Shown: positions 16,840 through 24,250 of the stretch, in pieces | How the letters are laid out: each line of letters begins with the position of its first letter | How positions within the stretch are numbered: position 1 is the first letter of the stretch | DNA from: Synergistaceae bacterium | GTDB lineage: Bacteria; Synergistota; Synergistia; Synergistales; Aminobacteriaceae | NCBI GenBank assembly: GCA_017450125.1 | Contig: JAFSWZ010000013.1 | Location: 142,282-186,186, forward strand | Reading direction: 5' to 3' | DNA: 43,905 nucleotides | Translations under genes and position numbers: made by a program | The notes under the pieces: model-generated | Databases searched by the model: none | What the model saw: the letters and a program-made list of their open reading frames with translations, nothing else | Told to the model about the DNA's origin: nothing

Positions 16840-16852
16840 GGGTTAATTACAC
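16833..16852. promoter_or_regulatory. Candidate metal-regulator operator over the nikK -35 box
   Basis: GTGTTAC (16833-16839) and ATTACAC (16846-16852) form an imperfect inverted repeat that overlaps the -35 box and the lpxB stop codon. GTGTTAC resembles the half-site I recall for some delta-proteobacterial NikR operators, but the 6-nt spacing here differs from the 13-15 nt of those sites. Confidence 0.35.
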
Positions 16853-17971
16853 ATTAAGGCTGGCGACGCATTCAGCCCAGAACTTTGCGGCGTGTTCGCT
16901 GCCCATCAAGGTCTTGGCCTCGCGAAGGATGGAATCTGTCTCCTGACGTATTGCTTCGTCGTCGAGGTAACGTTTGAGTTCGCGGACTATGTTCTCAGGA
17001 TTCGCGGCATCGCACAGAAGCTCAGGGTAGGCCTGATGACTCGTGAGCATGTTGGGGATCGAGATGTTCTTCACGTGAACGAGGTGCTTCAAGATTGCGT
17101 AGGTTACGCGCTTCATGTTGTAGATAACGACCATGTACCGGCCAAGAAGCATGGCCTCAACCGCAACAGTCCCCGACACTCCCGCGACAGCCTCAGCTCC
17201 AAGCATGAGCTCGCGTCCCGAGTCCTCCCACAGGTCGAAGCCCGACGCACTGACTCTCTCTCTCAGAACGTCAGCAAGCTCACCGCTCAGGCCTTGAGCT
17301 ACCGAGAACACAGGCCTGTAACCATCATCCCGAAGAATCTCAGCAGTGCCGAGCAATGTGTCAAGGTGATAGTTTATGTCGTAGCGTCGGCTTCCCGGCA
17401 TCAGAGCTACAACTCTCTCACCGCCGAAACGTTCGGCAAACGACGCGGGAACTCTCACGCCCTCAAGTTCATGCACGAGAGGATGAGCCTTCCACATCGA
17501 ACGCACTCCCCTGTCCAGCAGGAACTTGTGCTCGAACGAGAACAGCGGAAGGCACAAATCATAATCACGTTTGAGGTTCTTCACGCGGCTTGCCCGCCAT
17601 GCCCAGACTGTCGGAGGAATCAGGGAAATGATTTTTCCCGCGTAGCCCGCCTTCCTGAGTGAGTGTGCAAGCACAAGGTGGAAGTCCGGGCTGTCGATTA
17701 ACACCGCCGCATCAGGGTTGACCCTCAGGACTTCGCGGGTGATGCTGTTCTTCAGGCGCAGGATTCTCGGCAGGGCAGGGATAACCTCCACAATGCCCAT
17801 CAGCTTCAGCTCCTCGTAACTCCACACTGCACGGCCTCCTGCACTCTCGCCCATAGGGCCGAGCATTCCCCAGACGGAAATATCACCGTCAGCCTTCAGC
17901 AGCTCCCTGATAAAGTCTCCGGCGTAAATGTCCCCGCTGACTTCTCCGCACGACACAAATATATTCCTCAC
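16847..17971 (-). CDS. lpxB: Lipid-A-disaccharide synthase
   Basis: This 374-residue glycosyltransferase joins UDP-2,3-diacylglucosamine and lipid X to make the lipid A disaccharide at the inner membrane. The N-terminus (IFVSCGEVSGDIYAGDFI) carries the conserved GExSGD motif. IDSPDFHLVLAH, PPTVWAWRASRVK, HPLVHEL, and MPGSRRYDINYHL also follow the family. Length is normal. The ATG overlaps the stop of the upstream transporter gene (ATGA), so it is translated with that gene. It is the last gene of the envelope operon; nikK follows 76 nt later with its own promoter signals. Confidence 0.95.
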   Translation of the reverse strand: MRNIFVSCGEVSGDIYAGDFIRELLKADGDISVWGMLGPMGESAGGRAVWSYEELKLMGIVEVIPALPRILRLKNSITREVLRVNPDAAVLIDSPDFHLVLAHSLRKAGYAGKIISLIPPTVWAWRASRVKNLKRDYDLCLPLFSFEHKFLLDRGVRSMWKAHPLVHELEGVRVPASFAERFGGERVVALMPGSRRYDINYHLDTLLGTAEILRDDGYRPVFSVAQGLSGELADVLRERVSASGFDLWEDSGRELMLGAEAVAGVSGTVAVEAMLLGRYMVVIYNMKRVTYAILKHLVHVKNISIPNMLTSHQAYPELLCDAANPENIVRELKRYLDDEAIRQETDSILREAKTLMGSEHAAKFWAECVASLNV

Positions 17972-19608
17972 TGACGGTTGTACTCCTCTTCGTCAATCAT
18001 TCCGCCGCTCTTGGCAACAATAAGCGTAGAGGCTAGAGTTCCGTTGCAGCAAGTAACTGTGTCAGCCATGTCAAGCAGGGTGTAGATGCTCATGATCATT
18101 CCGATTGACTTGACGGGGCATCCCGCCTGAGCAAACAGCGTGGACAGCGCGATAACAGGTGCCCAAGAAGTCCCGGGAGCAATGATGATGACGGACAGTC
18201 CCAGCGAAATTATCTGCAGCCACGTTAAACGGATACCGTACATGTTCGCGGCGGACATGACTATCACCGACAGGCTCAGGCAAAACGCGTTCTTGTTCAG
18301 CGATGCGCCTATCGATACAGCAAACGATGAGAACTTCTGCAGAAGCCCCATGTCGTCAGCAGCTTTCATGCTGTCAGGTATCGCAGAAGTTGCTGAACAT
18401 GTGCCGAACGCGGTTATCATTGCCGGAACAGCTTTCTTGAACATGCGAAGAGGGTTGAGCTTCGCGGCGGACTTTATCATGAACAAGTAAAAAGCGTTCA
18501 GGAGTATGAAGCCCAGAATTACCGTGAAGAATATTCCCGCCAAAGATGCCAGCGTGCGGATGTCCTCAGTCAGCACTATCGATCCGACGGAACAGAACAC
18601 TACGATCGGAATGAACTTCATAAAGAACTCTGCTATCTTCATGAACACGTCGTTGAGTTCGCGGATTGAACTGCGAATCAGCTTTGCGTCCTTCGCTGAA
18701 GCGGCTATACCTACGATGACCCCGAGAACAATCAGCTGAAGGGTGTTGCTGTTCAGGAAAGGGCTGACTATATTTTCAGGGATTATGTTTCTCAGCATAT
18801 CGGTCATTGAGAATGACGCACCCTGAATGTCTGCGGGACTGGCAGGCGTAACGTATGCGCCTTTGCCCGTGCCGAAAAGCATCACCAAGCCGAAGCCCAG
18901 AGCTACCGCCAGGACCTGTATGCTCAGGAAACACGCCAGGAGTTTTCCGACGGATCGCCTGAAGCCGGACACGTCTCCTATGTCGGCAACGCTGGGCATC
19001 ACAGAGAAGAACACTACCGGGATTGTACACATCTTCATGCTGTTGAGGAATATGTTCTGTACCAGCATAAGCACATTGTCATTCAGGTAGGCTATGGTAT
19101 CCTCAGAGAAAATGTGTTCCGCAGCAAGGCCGAAGATTACGGCGGACAGCAGAGCCCCCAGAGTCTTGTACAGCATTGAATACGCAGACACGAACGCCTT
19201 TATCCTGATGACATTATACATCTGATAATGCTTGTACTTTATGATATGGCTGTAGGAGCTGAGAATAAGATTACGTATCGCTGCTTCGGCATCAGGAGCA
19301 ATGTCGTCCTCATCATCAGGCACATCCGGCACGTTGATACTCTCTGCAAAATCGAACTCTTTGCCCGGAACTGCCAGCTCGATGATCACGTCGCCGAAAA
19401 ATTTTCTGATACTCACTCTGATTACTTTTCTCTTCGTGAAATCTGCGTGCTCCATAAGGCTGAGCAGCGACTCTTCACACAGAATTTCGGCGCGGTTTTT
19501 CTCCTTCGTCTCGAGCTTCTTTGACGCGAGGCTTTCACGGACGAAAGTCAAAATCTGGCCTAATGTCTCTCTGCTGTCTGCTTCATTTACTGTTACTTTG
19601 AACTTCAT
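17968..19608 (-). CDS. SDF-fold (dicarboxylate/amino-acid:cation symporter-like) transporter with N-terminal GHKL-like domain
   Basis: The protein has 546 residues. Residues 1 to about 145 are soluble and resemble a GHKL/RsbW-type ATPase fold: a RAEILCEESLLSLMEHA helix like an N-box, a VIRVSIRKFFGDVIIELAV strand pair, and an end helix-strand YSHIIKYKHYQMYNVIRIK. The rest is an SDF/GltPh-type transporter with both re-entrant hairpins (CSATSAIPDSM; APGTSWAPVIAL). Key sites differ from glutamate transporters: the NMDGT motif is NKNAF (438-442), and the substrate-site aspartate is kept (D513) while the positions matching GltPh R397, N401 and D405 are D516, C520 and T524. Substrate is therefore unknown. 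It overlaps lpxI by 26 nt and lpxB by 4 nt. The ATPase-like reading is inference from pattern only. Confidence 0.8.
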   Translation of the reverse strand: MKFKVTVNEADSRETLGQILTFVRESLASKKLETKEKNRAEILCEESLLSLMEHADFTKRKVIRVSIRKFFGDVIIELAVPGKEFDFAESINVPDVPDDEDDIAPDAEAAIRNLILSSYSHIIKYKHYQMYNVIRIKAFVSAYSMLYKTLGALLSAVIFGLAAEHIFSEDTIAYLNDNVLMLVQNIFLNSMKMCTIPVVFFSVMPSVADIGDVSGFRRSVGKLLACFLSIQVLAVALGFGLVMLFGTGKGAYVTPASPADIQGASFSMTDMLRNIIPENIVSPFLNSNTLQLIVLGVIVGIAASAKDAKLIRSSIRELNDVFMKIAEFFMKFIPIVVFCSVGSIVLTEDIRTLASLAGIFFTVILGFILLNAFYLFMIKSAAKLNPLRMFKKAVPAMITAFGTCSATSAIPDSMKAADDMGLLQKFSSFAVSIGASLNKNAFCLSLSVIVMSAANMYGIRLTWLQIISLGLSVIIIAPGTSWAPVIALSTLFAQAGCPVKSIGMIMSIYTLLDMADTVTCCNGTLASTLIVAKSGGMIDEEEYNRQ

Positions 19609-20401
19609 TGTCTATCCCCCATACCGCTATCTTGTACTTGTCTGCGAGCGCAAAGAACTTCTCCGGCTCGAGTATCAGCGTCTTTCCCGCCTCAACCGCA
19701 AGGCACGACAACCCCGCCTCACGCATTGCCTCGATGGTTCGTGTCCCGACAGTCGGGAGGTCGTAGCGCATGTCCTGATCCGTACGCATCATCTTCACCA
19801 CAACCCCGCGCCCCGCGAGCTCTCCCGCACGATGAATCATCTTGTCCGTGCCCTCCATAGCCTCGACGGCTACCACAGCTCCGCCCGCAACGCACACAGC
19901 CTGTCCGAACGAACACGGCAATGTTACGCGCAGAATCTCTCTGCCGTAAGCTACGTCCTGCTGTTCCTGCTCATTCGGCGAACGTGAAGATAGCTTCCCG
20001 CGCGAGGCGATAAATTCCGGGAGTATCTGCCAGTACGGGATAACCGTTATCCCTTTCGCCTCGAACACGCTGACTATTGCACCAAGAAGCGAATGGTCAT
20101 CACGCAGGCTCTTCCGCAGTACCGAACGGGTTAATCTGTCGAACAGAAGAGGCAGGCAGTAGATAATTCTCTTGGGAATCCTGCCCGCCATTATCAGCCT
20201 GTCAGAACCGAACGCCTTTATCTCACGCAAGCCCCGGCCAAGATTCGGAGAACGCATTTTCACGAGGCGCGTGGCGTACGGTGCTAACTCTTCGGGGTCA
20301 TCACGCAGGGCAAGTATCAGCGTTTCGGGCTGAAGTTCCCGCAGTCTCCTAGCTATCTCTACGGGCAATATTCCTTGTCCTGCGATAAGTGCCGTGCTCA
20401 A
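19583..20401 (-). CDS. lpxI: UDP-2,3-diacylglucosamine pyrophosphatase LpxI
   Basis: This enzyme hydrolyses UDP-2,3-diacylglucosamine to lipid X and UMP, the step before LpxB; it replaces LpxH in many non-enteric diderms. Landmarks are the N-terminal ALIAGQGILPVEIA, the central RDDHSLLGAIVSVFEAKGI, and the C-terminal catalytic domain with GAVVAVEAMEGTDKMI, VVKMMRTDQDMRYDLPTVG and SCLAVEAGKTLIL. I choose TTG 20401, which overlaps the upstream stop as TTGA and gives the canonical MSTALIAGQG; GTG 20419 adds six residues. It is about 272 residues long. Confidence 0.93.
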   Translation of the reverse strand: MSTALIAGQGILPVEIARRLRELQPETLILALRDDPEELAPYATRLVKMRSPNLGRGLREIKAFGSDRLIMAGRIPKRIIYCLPLLFDRLTRSVLRKSLRDDHSLLGAIVSVFEAKGITVIPYWQILPEFIASRGKLSSRSPNEQEQQDVAYGREILRVTLPCSFGQAVCVAGGAVVAVEAMEGTDKMIHRAGELAGRGVVVKMMRTDQDMRYDLPTVGTRTIEAMREAGLSCLAVEAGKTLILEPEKFFALADKYKIAVWGIDNEVQSNSK

Positions 20402-21498
20402 ATCCTGTCTACCCTCCACGCGAAGAACAGCGCGATAACCAGAAACACGCAGTTAGGCCCCCAGCCCGCCAGAACCGCCGGAATGTTCCCCGACTCCCCG
20501 AGCGCACGGCACAGCGACATAACAACGTAATACGCGAACACCATAACAACGCTTATCCCGAAGCCCACGCCTCCTCCGCTTCTCCCGCGCCTCGATGCTC
20601 CGAACCCTGCACCGAGAACAGCCATAATCACGCACGCCCAAGGGACGGCAAGTTTCAGGTGAAACATTACCCAGAGCTTGGATAGGTCTGTACCTGCAGT
20701 GCCAGCCTGTGTTATGTAGCTCCACAGCTCGTGTGCAGACATGCTCGAAGGCTTGCGGGTGCTCCTCTGCAATTGCTCGGGTGAAAGACGAATCGCCAGC
20801 CTCTGACGCTCGAACCGTAACAGTAAGGACACCTCGCCTTCACGGGAAATGCTGTAGATTCTGCCGTCCTCTATCCACCACTGCGAGTTCTGCCACATCC
20901 CGCGCTGTGCATGAAGCGTTGTCGCAAGATGCCCGTCGTCGAACTCATGCATCATTATCCCGCTCATTTTGCCTTCGTTCGGGTCAAGCTCATCGATGTA
21001 CAGCACGCGTTTTAGCTGTCCTTTCTCCTCCTCGCGCAGAAACACTTTCTCCTGAACTGCCGCCGCCTGATTCTTCATTATCTCGTACTTCATCAGACGG
21101 TCAGCAGCTATCGACGCGAACGGCACAAAGGTTTCATTGAAGCCGAGCGCAGTTATTGAGATGAGAATTGACGCAAAGAGTATGGGACGCAGGATTCTTC
21201 TGAAGGGTATTCCCAGAGACTTAAGCGCGATTAACTCACTGCCTCCGTTGAGCGTGGACATTCCCAGCAGAGTAGAGAGCAGGGACGACATCGGAACGGT
21301 CATTATCACCACTTCAGGCAAACGGTACAGGAACAGCCTCGCAACGACAGCGAAGGCCACTCCCTGTTCAATTATGAGCTTGGCCGCCTGAAACAGCAGA
21401 TCTCCCGCCACAAAGATAAGCACGAAGATTAATATCCCGAACACGAAAGGCCCTGCACATGAGCCGAGTATTAATTTGTTGAGCAGCCCTCGTCTCAT
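20398..21498 (-). CDS. LPS export permease, LptF/LptG family
   Basis: This 366-residue inner-membrane protein extracts LPS from the membrane together with the LptB ATPase. It has the YjgP/YjgQ layout: two N-terminal helices (FVFGILIFVLIFVAGDLLF), a coupling segment with GGSELIALKSLGIPFRRIL, a further helix, a large periplasmic beta-jellyroll, then three C-terminal helices. Only one such permease is encoded here, so its LptF or LptG partner may be elsewhere; which of the two it is cannot be settled by eye. ATGA overlap links it to the upstream PAS gene. Confidence 0.9.
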   Translation of the reverse strand: MRRGLLNKLILGSCAGPFVFGILIFVLIFVAGDLLFQAAKLIIEQGVAFAVVARLFLYRLPEVVIMTVPMSSLLSTLLGMSTLNGGSELIALKSLGIPFRRILRPILFASILISITALGFNETFVPFASIAADRLMKYEIMKNQAAAVQEKVFLREEEKGQLKRVLYIDELDPNEGKMSGIMMHEFDDGHLATTLHAQRGMWQNSQWWIEDGRIYSISREGEVSLLLRFERQRLAIRLSPEQLQRSTRKPSSMSAHELWSYITQAGTAGTDLSKLWVMFHLKLAVPWACVIMAVLGAGFGASRRGRSGGGVGFGISVVMVFAYYVVMSLCRALGESGNIPAVLAGWGPNCVFLVIALFFAWRVDRI

Positions 21499-22652
21499 TC
21501 TGACAGTGCATTAGCCGAATATTTCCGGGTCATTGCGTTGGTCATGCGGTCAATGAGTTCCTGAGCACTCGGCACGTTGTTTCCGCCCTCGAAGGTCTCA
21601 TAGACGCTCAGCACCGTAACATGCATGAACTCCTCGAACGTCGGCACAAGGGCATTCGTGATAGCCGTCAGCCTCTCTATTACGTTCTCGACCATCTGGT
21701 ACGGGCACTCCGACAGCACAACGAGAATCTGAAACTCTCCCGTCTGGATAGCAGTGTCGGACTGCCGGATGTTGTTGATTACGCGTGCACTGTATGCCCT
21801 GAAAGGCCGCGTGTACTTGTCCATGTCATCAGACGGCAATAACTGCGGGAACACGAGACGTAGCATCACTGCGCTTACTGCTCTGCCGTAACGCCCAGCC
21901 CTGTAGAGTTCGTCGCTTATTCTCGCGAAGCCGTAGTTGAACGTGTGAAGCTGTGTGTCCTCGTCGGTAAATGCCAGAACTACTCCGCCTGACGTGCTTC
22001 CGCCTTCGGAGGACTCTTCACCGGTCGGAAGCCCCTTCGGGTTCAGCTCGAAGTAGAAGCGTCTTCCGTCGTCGATAGATATGCGCTTGATGTCCCAAAT
22101 CTTGCCGTTAATCTCCGCAGTCTTTGACACGGGACTGAACCACTCGCTAATGTTCTTGCCCAGCATGTTCAGCCGCGACAGGCCAAGTACCTCGAGCATG
22201 TCGTCAGTGAGGTTCAGTATCGCTCCCGTCTCGTCGGTTATCGCGAAGTTCACGGGAAGCTGCTTCAGGTCGTCTTCAACCTCAAGCACTACGACTTTGT
22301 TGCGTTCGGCTTCGGTCTGGTTGTACGCAACGACAAGTGCCGCCGCTCCGCACACCGCCAAAATCACCCCGAGCCACTGGAACATTCTTGCGCCGTACAT
22401 TATCGACATCGGGCATAGAAGTATCCCCTGCGCAAGTGCCTGAAGGGGGACGAGCCCCTGACTGAAGCCGTGAGCTATGAACAGCCCGTAGAGCACGCTT
22501 ATCACGATGAACAGCAGCCACACCAGCCCCCACACGGACAGGTCAACTTCACCCGAGACGTTCCCTGTGCCCATTGCGCGGGCGAGCATTATTGTGGCAA
22601 TCGCAACGACGGGAGGAACTGTTATCCACTTCAGGAAATTGTTTCCGCCCAT
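21495..22652 (-). CDS. Membrane protein with PAS and degenerate GGDEF domains
   Basis: About 385 residues. Three or four N-terminal transmembrane helices (ITVPPVVAIATIMLA, VWGLVWLLFIVISVLYGLF, WLGVILAVCGAAALVVAY) are followed by a PAS-like domain (FAITDETGAILNLTDDMLEVLGLS). A GGDEF-like domain comes last (ISDELYRAGRYGRAVSAVML, NNIRQSDTAIQTGEFQILVVLSE). The signature GGDEF is replaced by QTGEFQ, so cyclase activity is unlikely. The layout recalls GdpP-type phosphodiesterases without the DHH catalytic part. Start ATG 22652 lies 2 nt after the DUF4139 gene. Sitting directly before the LPS permease, it may sense and signal envelope state; that role is inference. Confidence 0.7.
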   Translation of the reverse strand: MGGNNFLKWITVPPVVAIATIMLARAMGTGNVSGEVDLSVWGLVWLLFIVISVLYGLFIAHGFSQGLVPLQALAQGILLCPMSIMYGARMFQWLGVILAVCGAAALVVAYNQTEAERNKVVVLEVEDDLKQLPVNFAITDETGAILNLTDDMLEVLGLSRLNMLGKNISEWFSPVSKTAEINGKIWDIKRISIDDGRRFYFELNPKGLPTGEESSEGGSTSGGVVLAFTDEDTQLHTFNYGFARISDELYRAGRYGRAVSAVMLRLVFPQLLPSDDMDKYTRPFRAYSARVINNIRQSDTAIQTGEFQILVVLSECPYQMVENVIERLTAITNALVPTFEEFMHVTVLSVYETFEGGNNVPSAQELIDRMTNAMTRKYSANALSE

Positions 22653-22654
22653 AA

Positions 22655-24250
22655 CTATTTGTACTCCAGTTCCTCGCCGCTGGGATAAGAGAGCGTGTAG
22701 TCCACTATGATCGTCTCTGTCTTCCCGGCCGGCACGGTGATTTCCCACGTGTAACGGTTCTCCGCGTCCTTCTCCTTCTCCTTCGGCTCAATGCGTTTCA
22801 CGTCGAGCTTTATCTTCTCATCCGTCGGAACAGGCAGGCGGTCGCGGACTGTTATCACCTTGTCGGATCTCGTGCCGTTGGTTATCTCCAGCTTGTAGCC
22901 GCTCATGAACACCCCGCTGAACCACGAGACTCCTGTCTTGCCGATTAACGCTTCCTTCTTCACGGTGATCTGATCCGCATAGCCGAACGGTATACGTCTC
23001 TGTCCCGTGCCGAACTCCTCGAGGAAGATTTTTCCTGTGGGACTGCCGTCAACTCTGAGCTCTGCGTTGCCGGGAATCAGCTTGTCGTTGTCCTCGTCCA
23101 TGCTGGCGATTATCCACGCTTTGTCCTTCTGCTCGGGAATGAGCATGATTATCGGCTTGGCTTTCAGCTTCAGCCCGCCGAGCGCAACCTCAAACTCTCT
23201 CTCTTGGCCGTCGCCGGTTATCGTGCCTTCGACGCGCACTGCCCTGTCAGATAAGCTCTCCTGAACCGCCGGGCCGGTTGATTCTGGCTCTGCGTAGTAG
23301 TCCTCCGCCACAGTATCCTCATCGAAAGCCGCCATGTTCCCCGCCATAGGTGCCGCCATACGTGCGGACTCGTACATCCTGTTAGTGCGGGTTAAGCTCA
23401 TGCCTTTGGTCGCAATCACTCTCTCCTGTCTGGGCCTTATCGAGACCCTGATAGGCTGAAGATCGGGGTTGCTGATGTTCTCGTCGGGAGTTTTTGTGTG
23501 AAGGGAGAACGCACCCGTGTAGTCGAGGCCTGTCCTCTGCGATGCCCTGATGAACATCTGAACCTCAATGTCCCCCGACTCGCTGTCGAGGTTCAGCGCG
23601 TAACGGGGTCTCCAGCTCGCCGAGCCCGTCGAAGCCTCAAGCCTCACCGTGCCCTTAGCGCGTCCTGTTACGACGAGATAGCTGCTCTCTCCCGAAGGAC
23701 GGCGCGAGTTCAGCTGGCTCGTCAGCATCGTCAGAATCTCCTTCTCCCGCGAAACTTCGGCCTTCACCGTCGCGAGTTCGTCTTCTGTCTTCTGCCGGAG
23801 TGCCTGCGCGCTGGTTATGTAGTCCAGCAGGTCAGTAGGGTTGTCGGCTCTGTCGGGCTCGATGGCCTTCAAGAGTTTCAGCGTCTGCTCAAGCGAGGCC
23901 TGATGTGCTGCGAGCGTGCTGACCTTCTGGGACTGCGCTTCCTGCTCGGCCTTCAGGGCTTCAAGCTGTGGCGGTGTCCACTTCGTGCGGGTGCGCTTCT
24001 CCGTCTTGATGTCCCCAAAAACGTTCTCGGGGTTCAGGAGCTTCACAGACTCCGCAGAAAACGCGCCGGGAAGATACGCCTCGAACGTCCCGTCCTCTCC
24101 TTGCGGCTCAATGAGGAACTCGAACCTCGCGCCGCTGGGGTAAAAATTGAGGGCGGCTATTGTTCCAGTGTAGGTGTCGGGCAGCTCAAGAGCACTGCAG
24201 GCACACGCAGACAACGCCAGCAGCATCAACGATAACATCAAAGCTTTCAT
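22655..24250 (-). CDS. Secreted DUF4139 (MuiA-like) protein
   Basis: This is a 531-residue exported protein with signal peptide MKALMLSLMLLALSACACSA. The order is an N-terminal beta domain, a long coiled coil (about residues 95-185, with LKAEQEAQSQKVSTLAAHQA), then the DUF4139 beta-barrel domain with the family pattern GSASWRPRYALNL, DYTGAFSLHTKTP, and a late ENRYTWEITVPAGKTETI. No C-terminal membrane anchor is seen. MuiA-family proteins are poorly understood; some affect capsule or envelope. It heads the LPS operon, so an envelope role fits. Confidence 0.8.
   Translation of the reverse strand: MKALMLSLMLLALSACACSALELPDTYTGTIAALNFYPSGARFEFLIEPQGEDGTFEAYLPGAFSAESVKLLNPENVFGDIKTEKRTRTKWTPPQLEALKAEQEAQSQKVSTLAAHQASLEQTLKLLKAIEPDRADNPTDLLDYITSAQALRQKTEDELATVKAEVSREKEILTMLTSQLNSRRPSGESSYLVVTGRAKGTVRLEASTGSASWRPRYALNLDSESGDIEVQMFIRASQRTGLDYTGAFSLHTKTPDENISNPDLQPIRVSIRPRQERVIATKGMSLTRTNRMYESARMAAPMAGNMAAFDEDTVAEDYYAEPESTGPAVQESLSDRAVRVEGTITGDGQEREFEVALGGLKLKAKPIIMLIPEQKDKAWIIASMDEDNDKLIPGNAELRVDGSPTGKIFLEEFGTGQRRIPFGYADQITVKKEALIGKTGVSWFSGVFMSGYKLEITNGTRSDKVITVRDRLPVPTDEKIKLDVKRIEPKEKEKDAENRYTWEITVPAGKTETIIVDYTLSYPSGEELEYK

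Follow-up and report, generated by a model that had tools for sequence, protein, structure and literature searches.

Situated between the lipid A genes lpxI and lpxB in the window (the whole 43,905-nucleotide stretch of Synergistaceae DNA that was analysed, from an assembly of 2.16 Mb), a gene was found whose product joins a transporter core of the SDF family to a cytoplasmic front domain. The best explanation, to which a probability of about 0.6 is given, is that it belongs to a group of lineage-specific, probably Na+-independent SDF elevator transporters which carry a pseudo-GHKL regulatory domain and occupy a slot in the lipid A operon whose content can be exchanged. In the rumen bacteria of the Fretibacterium group, this variable and swapped cassette points to a regulated carrier that probably works without sodium, and not to an enzyme of lipid A.

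The gene order is lptG, lpxI, transporter gene, lpxB (Table 1). The end of lpxI overlaps the start of the transporter gene by 26 nt (19583-19608), so that the lpxI stop codon lies inside the latter, and the GTG start of lpxB overlaps the transporter stop codon by 4 nt (GTGA, 17968-17971). The coordinates and all the residue numbers given in an earlier sequence-only reading of this DNA proved right when compared with the sequence and with the alignment to GltTk/GltPh. Full-length homologues at 31-51% identity were found across the genus, with dN/dS well below 1, and the transporter gene with its front domain is therefore judged, from these sequence comparisons, not to be a product of chance. 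Upstream of lptG the window also encodes a membrane protein (21495-22748, minus strand), conserved at that place throughout the genus, with weak PAS and weak GGDEF-like matches and no intact GGDEF motif seen.

Table 1. Features of the transporter gene, its operon and the related ABC-ATPase fusions (positions are those of the window unless a locus or contig is named).
Feature	Position	Strand	Basis or remark
Pseudo-GHKL-SDF transporter CDS, 546 aa	17968..19608	-	ATG at 19608, stop 17970-17968
N-terminal cytoplasmic pseudo-GHKL (RsbW/SpoIIAB-like) domain, residues 1-143 (~143)	19180..19608	-	AF2 model, Foldseek/VIA matches
SDF elevator-transporter core, residues 144-546	17971..19179	-	PF00375, Foldseek to GltTk/GltPh
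NKNAF (438-442) replacing NMDGT, K439 at GltPh M311	18283..18297	-	alignment with GltTk/GltPh
TM8 site D513..T524 (D513=D394, D516=R397, C520=N401, T524=D405)	18037..18072	-	alignment with GltTk/GltPh
lpxI	19583..20419	-	Pfam LpxI_N + LpxI_C
lpxB, GTG start	16847..17971	-	Pfam LpxB E 7e-69
lptG/lptF-type LPS export permease, upstream member of the gene run	20398..21498	-	LptF_LptG E 3e-91
Amino-acid-type ABC ATPase with degenerate RsbW-like C-terminus	L188:341-1492; C-terminal domain C17:75420-75791, own genome	+	
Same ABC-ATPase/RsbW-like fusion	L191, L192, L193, L244:2691-3803		

The core of the protein matched the SDF profile PF00375 over residues 146-533 with E 8.3e-73 and 246 bits, against a cut-off of 27.9. 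The full-length AlphaFold2 model, which is of medium confidence (mean pLDDT 75.8) and carries no information on how the N-domain and the core meet, contained HP1, TM7, HP2 and TM8, and was matched by Foldseek with GltTk/GltPh (E 3e-17, TM-score by target ~0.8). The top match of the protein among PDB sequences was the 'uncoupled' ancestral aspartate transporter Anc-Int (E 4e-48). The comparison with GltPh/GltTk showed that the window copy retains N310, D394 (as D513) and T398, and that T92 is changed to I230, S93 to Q231, M311 to K439, D312 to N, R397 to D516, N401 to C520 and D405 to T524; the loss of the residues for acidic amino acids and Na+, with one substrate-site Asp kept, had been correctly described beforehand. 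The HP2 loop is unusual, with GTSWAPV where GTAGVPG is expected.

A lysine occupied the Met311 position in all 25 lpx-linked copies compared, with residue equivalences set by motif, and was likewise invariant in 25 aligned proteins. The same lpx-linked copies kept D394 in 24/25 and T398 in 25/25 cases, had D, N, A, G, R or K at the R397 position and never had Asp at that of D405. The combination of NKNAF and D516 belongs to the clade of the window copy and is common to genomes G003, G004 and G005. Of the unlinked members, 16/31 also carried the lysine, and the other ones had NMDGS, NMHGT or SLDGV. The residues NKNAF, D516, C520, T524 and I230/Q231 set the window protein apart from Na+-coupled transporters of acidic amino acids of the GltPh type. 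The signature of H+-coupled glutamate transporters comprises a change of T92 to a hydrophobic residue, M311L and D405N, with S279E as putative protonation site (PMC12668577); I230 fits the first of these changes, and K439, T524 and T407 do not fit M311L, D405N and S279E. SDF proteins devoid of the Na+ and H+ signature residues are predicted to be uncoupled and often occur near genes of amino-acid metabolism (PMC12668577), and the window protein bears neither signature set.

The front domain was recognized through its structure. Residues 1 to ~145 of the window protein gave neither a HATPase_c_2 match nor any other Pfam family above the cut-off, a PDB sequence-profile search with the N-domain returned nothing relevant, and the likeness emerged only by structure search. 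The AlphaFold2 model of the N-domain, obtained from 25 family members (pLDDT 84.5), has the order strand, helix, helix, strand, strand, helix, strand, strand; Foldseek placed SpoIIAB, UsfX and RsbW on top (E 1.5e-5 to SpoIIAB), and realignment with VIA gave Z values of 13.4 for UsfX (8ih8), 12.8 for SpoIIAB, 11.8 for RsbW and less than 9 for histidine kinases. Furthermore, HATPase_c_2 was matched by 16/47 family N-domains at E<=5 (best 1.4e-6, Pfam), and a profile of the family N-domains picked up genuine RsbW-like domains encoded in the genus, with E of 1e-11 to 2e-8 for a small protein set and of 4e-9 to 7e-6 for searches of one whole genome at a time. From the structure matches, the HATPase_c_2 matches and the profile results taken together, the fold of the N-domain is predicted to be GHKL of the RsbW/SpoIIAB type. 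The sequence-only reading, which had suggested a GHKL/anti-sigma fold and structure prediction as the means of checking it, was borne out in this respect. The hits of the window N-domain alone to Crypto_dsRNA_S (E 0.003) and to Smoothelin in Pfam were set aside as chance, since the fold and the relatives indicate HATPase_c_2.

The alignment of the 47 family N-domains with six RsbW-like domains of the genus showed that the N-box Glu and the G1 Gly are kept in all 47, and that the N-box Asn is present in 2/47, the G1 Asp in 0/47 and the third G2 Gly in 0/47, whereas each of these three residues is present in 6/6 RsbW-like domains. In the window protein S50, V80 and R112, respectively, take their place. 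Because the ATP-site motifs, including the G2 glycines, are lost throughout the family, the N-domain would not be an ATPase going by motifs. The sequence-only reading had offered a nucleotide-gated transporter, in which an ATP-binding GHKL domain gates the carrier; the GHKL fold and the universal N-box Glu are in keeping with such a gate, but the family-wide losses, compared with the intact same-genus domains, leave it very little probability.

The RsbW fold would also suit a transceptor without transport, in which solute binding by the SDF core would be relayed through the pseudo-RsbW domain to a STAS or sigma partner. Circuits of partner switching may be present in this organism, whose genome encodes both STAS proteins and SpoIIE-HATPase phosphatases, and the hypervariable substrate site and the lost cation sites could be read in the same sense. 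However, all the helical hairpins and helices named above are in the predicted fold, paralogues have catabolic enzymes and a further transporter as neighbours, and relatives with a canonical NMDGS bear an N-terminal extension of the same kind; such a transceptor is therefore held to be unlikely.

The named matches of the family came from rumen or gut MAGs of goat, sheep and roe deer labelled Synergistaceae, Synergistales or Fretibacterium, and from two rumen Spirochaetia MAGs. In 21/43 genomes of the genus the interval from lpxI to lpxB contains one to three fused genes, or such genes run off a contig end beside either of the two; in 18 others lpxI touches lpxB, one has the two genes apart and three are without data. 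The position noticed in the window is thus shared with other genomes and is not unique. Outside the genus, the genomes with both genes had lpxI and lpxB adjacent in the profile matches compared, with the exception of G054, whose gap of ~380 nt may be explained by a partial LpxB match. Several slot copies are broken: G039 retains a remnant of 148 aa, the copies of G030 and G032 have internal deletions, and those of G025 and G035 show frame breaks. Some of these defects may be assembly errors. The G039 remnant (L082:6515-6958) is a transporter C-terminus between lpxI and lpxB with both overlaps kept.

In the family tree the lpx-linked copies cluster, except for one broken copy weakly placed at the base, and one unlinked gene and two Spirochaetia genes are nested among them, while presence is patchy on the lptG-lpxI-lpxB tree. 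A single origin in the genus followed by losses, duplications and transfer fits these sequence data best. The two nested Spirochaetia fusions (L136:3569-5179 and L137:5986-7596) stand beside genes for a D-Ala-D-Ala dipeptidase and an aminotransferase, and were probably acquired by horizontal transfer, as judged from the tree. The same Spirochaetia genomes hold further N-terminally extended SDF proteins (L140/L141:1081-2727, L142:353-2074 and L147:1111-2694), some of them with a canonical NMDGS, and that of L142 adjoins a solute-binding/membrane fusion gene. Among 149 genomes of the phylum of one Spirochaetia MAG the fusion was found in two only, at the search sensitivity used; no plasmid record contained the fusion over 80% of its length, a single-protein query against genome contigs gave no match, and a search for this fusion in mostly open-access literature yielded nothing pertinent. 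The fusion may be wider across phyla than is reported here.

In close pairs the whole gene had a dN/dS of 0.15-0.22 and each domain taken separately one of 0.12-0.26, and both domains are therefore taken, on the strength of the codon comparisons, to be under purifying selection and maintained, which argues that the transporter core still does something. In five closely compared genome pairs the dS of the cassette was 0.18-0.38, against 0.37-2.4, mostly 0.7-1.9, for the neighbouring operon genes that served as controls. Nucleotide identity jumps at the boundary of lpxI and the cassette and drops again in lpxB, and the G034 copy clusters with a clade of distant species, a case of tree incongruence. 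The cassette appears, from such comparisons, to have been exchanged between species. Codon bias as the source of the low cassette dS found no support, ENC and GC3 being alike in cassette and flanks. Since the unlinked paralogues show lowered dS too (0.23-0.67), exchange seems to be a general habit of these genes and not specific to the slot. Tandem copies, allele exchange, a hypervariable pocket and decayed copies would equally be expected of a fast-changing surface protein under phage or toxin pressure, with transport secondary; this is thought improbable, given that dN/dS is well below 1 in both domains and that the variability noted sits in the substrate pocket.

The surroundings of the unlinked paralogues are of a catabolic kind. 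Unlinked fusions lie between TctA and the citrate lyase genes CitD/CitE/CitF, or adjoin an Fe-alcohol dehydrogenase with a flavodoxin, LysR, or, in Spirochaetia, the dipeptidase and aminotransferase genes named above. By their neighbour genes these paralogues point to the uptake of small acids or amino acids and not to lipid A. The overlaps with lpxI and lpxB had led the sequence-only reading to a 'lock-step with lipid A synthesis', and a part in the synthesis or export of lipid A/LPS, for instance in precursor transport or feedback control, could be imagined from these overlaps and from the linkage in 21 genus genomes. As a functional link this found no support. The gene is absent from this position in the 18 genus genomes with adjacent lpxI and lpxB and in the outgroups, which is not the conserved presence with the lpx genes that marks components of the pathway; its copies number 0 to 3 and are divergent or broken, and the cassette exchange and the paralogues near citrate lyase, alcohol dehydrogenase or LysR genes also speak against it. 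A role in lipid A is therefore considered improbable.

A degenerate domain of the same type was met in a second setting. The genome of the window encodes an amino-acid-type ABC ATPase with a C-terminal RsbW-like domain in which the N-box Asn is replaced (Table 1). This fusion was matched at E<=0.001 in 42/43 genus genomes, one or two of the matches being weak or partial, and occurs in a sister genus too; one relative exceeded the HATPase_c_2 cut-off (30.5 vs 27.4 bits). The ABC-ATPase fusions fit, as far as their sequences can be read, a control role for the degenerate domain. Two further genes of the genome may be mentioned, another ABC ATPase, extended in a like manner at its C-terminus (L238:1026-2096, plus strand, contig C34), which adjoins a fused solute-binding-protein/permease gene, and a 288-aa membrane protein with a C-terminal stretch like the degenerate GHKL domain (L239:712-1575, plus strand, contig C40), directly upstream of a gene for a dCache-HAMP-SpoIIE-HATPase_c_2 protein. 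It may be speculated, with considerable doubt, that the degenerate RsbW-type domain is an ATP-independent control module shared by the nutrient transporters of rumen Synergistota and Spirochaetia, attached to the N-terminus of SDF proteins and to the C-terminus of the amino-acid ABC ATPase, hence to two or more unrelated kinds of transporter, and answering to a STAS/SpoIIE partner-switching circuit.

For the reading preferred here, that of a regulated Na+-independent carrier, the following picture is proposed. The protein would form trimers and work as an SDF elevator, as its family does, and the core would transport, independently of Na+, an amino acid or a small organic acid, as a facilitator, an exchanger or a proton-coupled carrier. 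The charge of K439 may stand in place of the bound cation, and the residue at the R397 position would set the specificity. The pseudo-GHKL domain would control the carrier from the cytoplasm by binding another protein or a small ligand, with ATP playing no part. The slot between lpxI and lpxB would provide steady translation from a housekeeping operon and be a site of gain, loss and exchange of transporter alleles, and lipid A would not be the substrate. Against this picture, a lysine at the cation site might just as well lock the carrier, and the unusual HP2 and the broken relatives would suit a dispensable or decaying gene.

If the proposal is true, the family offers elevator transporters with naturally replaced cation sites and a fixed lysine amid them, and hence a natural experiment on the requirements of ion coupling, as well as a pseudo-kinase fold reused for the control of uptake. 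The essential lipid A operon would be a place where gut bacteria swap transporter alleles, and operon position there would therefore be a poor guide to function.

The comparison with known systems starts from the GltPh/GltTk Na+/aspartate symporters (SDF/DAACS, TC 2.A.23), with which the protein shares the full SDF profile, the elevator fold and the positions D394 and T398; it differs in the replacement of NMDGT, R397, N401, D405 and T92/S93, in the invariant Lys for M311 and in the additional N-domain. Of the proteins with solved structures, the uncoupled SDF transporter Anc-Int matches best in sequence, and its descendants (PMC12668577) resemble the family in having no Na+/H+ signature residues and in their metabolic neighbour genes, but Anc-Int retains both its binding sites and NMD, whereas the present family has other residues at these sites and an added pseudo-GHKL domain. 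With the anti-sigma kinases RsbW, SpoIIAB and UsfX (HATPase_c_2) the N-domain has in common the whole b-a-a-b-b-a-b-b fold and the retained N-box Glu and G1 Gly; unlike them, it is without the N-box Asn, G1 Asp and G2 glycines and is joined to a transporter. The SLC26/SulP proteins are secondary transporters that bear a cytoplasmic STAS domain, and so likewise join a carrier to a module from the STAS/anti-sigma partner-switching repertoire, although there the STAS domain is C-terminal on an unrelated fold and here an RsbW-like partner is N-terminal on SDF. Finally, ABC ATPases of the MetN type carry a C-terminal ACT-like regulatory domain and resemble the ABC-ATPase fusion of the genus in the extra cytoplasmic domain on an amino-acid importer, which is ACT-like in the former and pseudo-GHKL in the latter.
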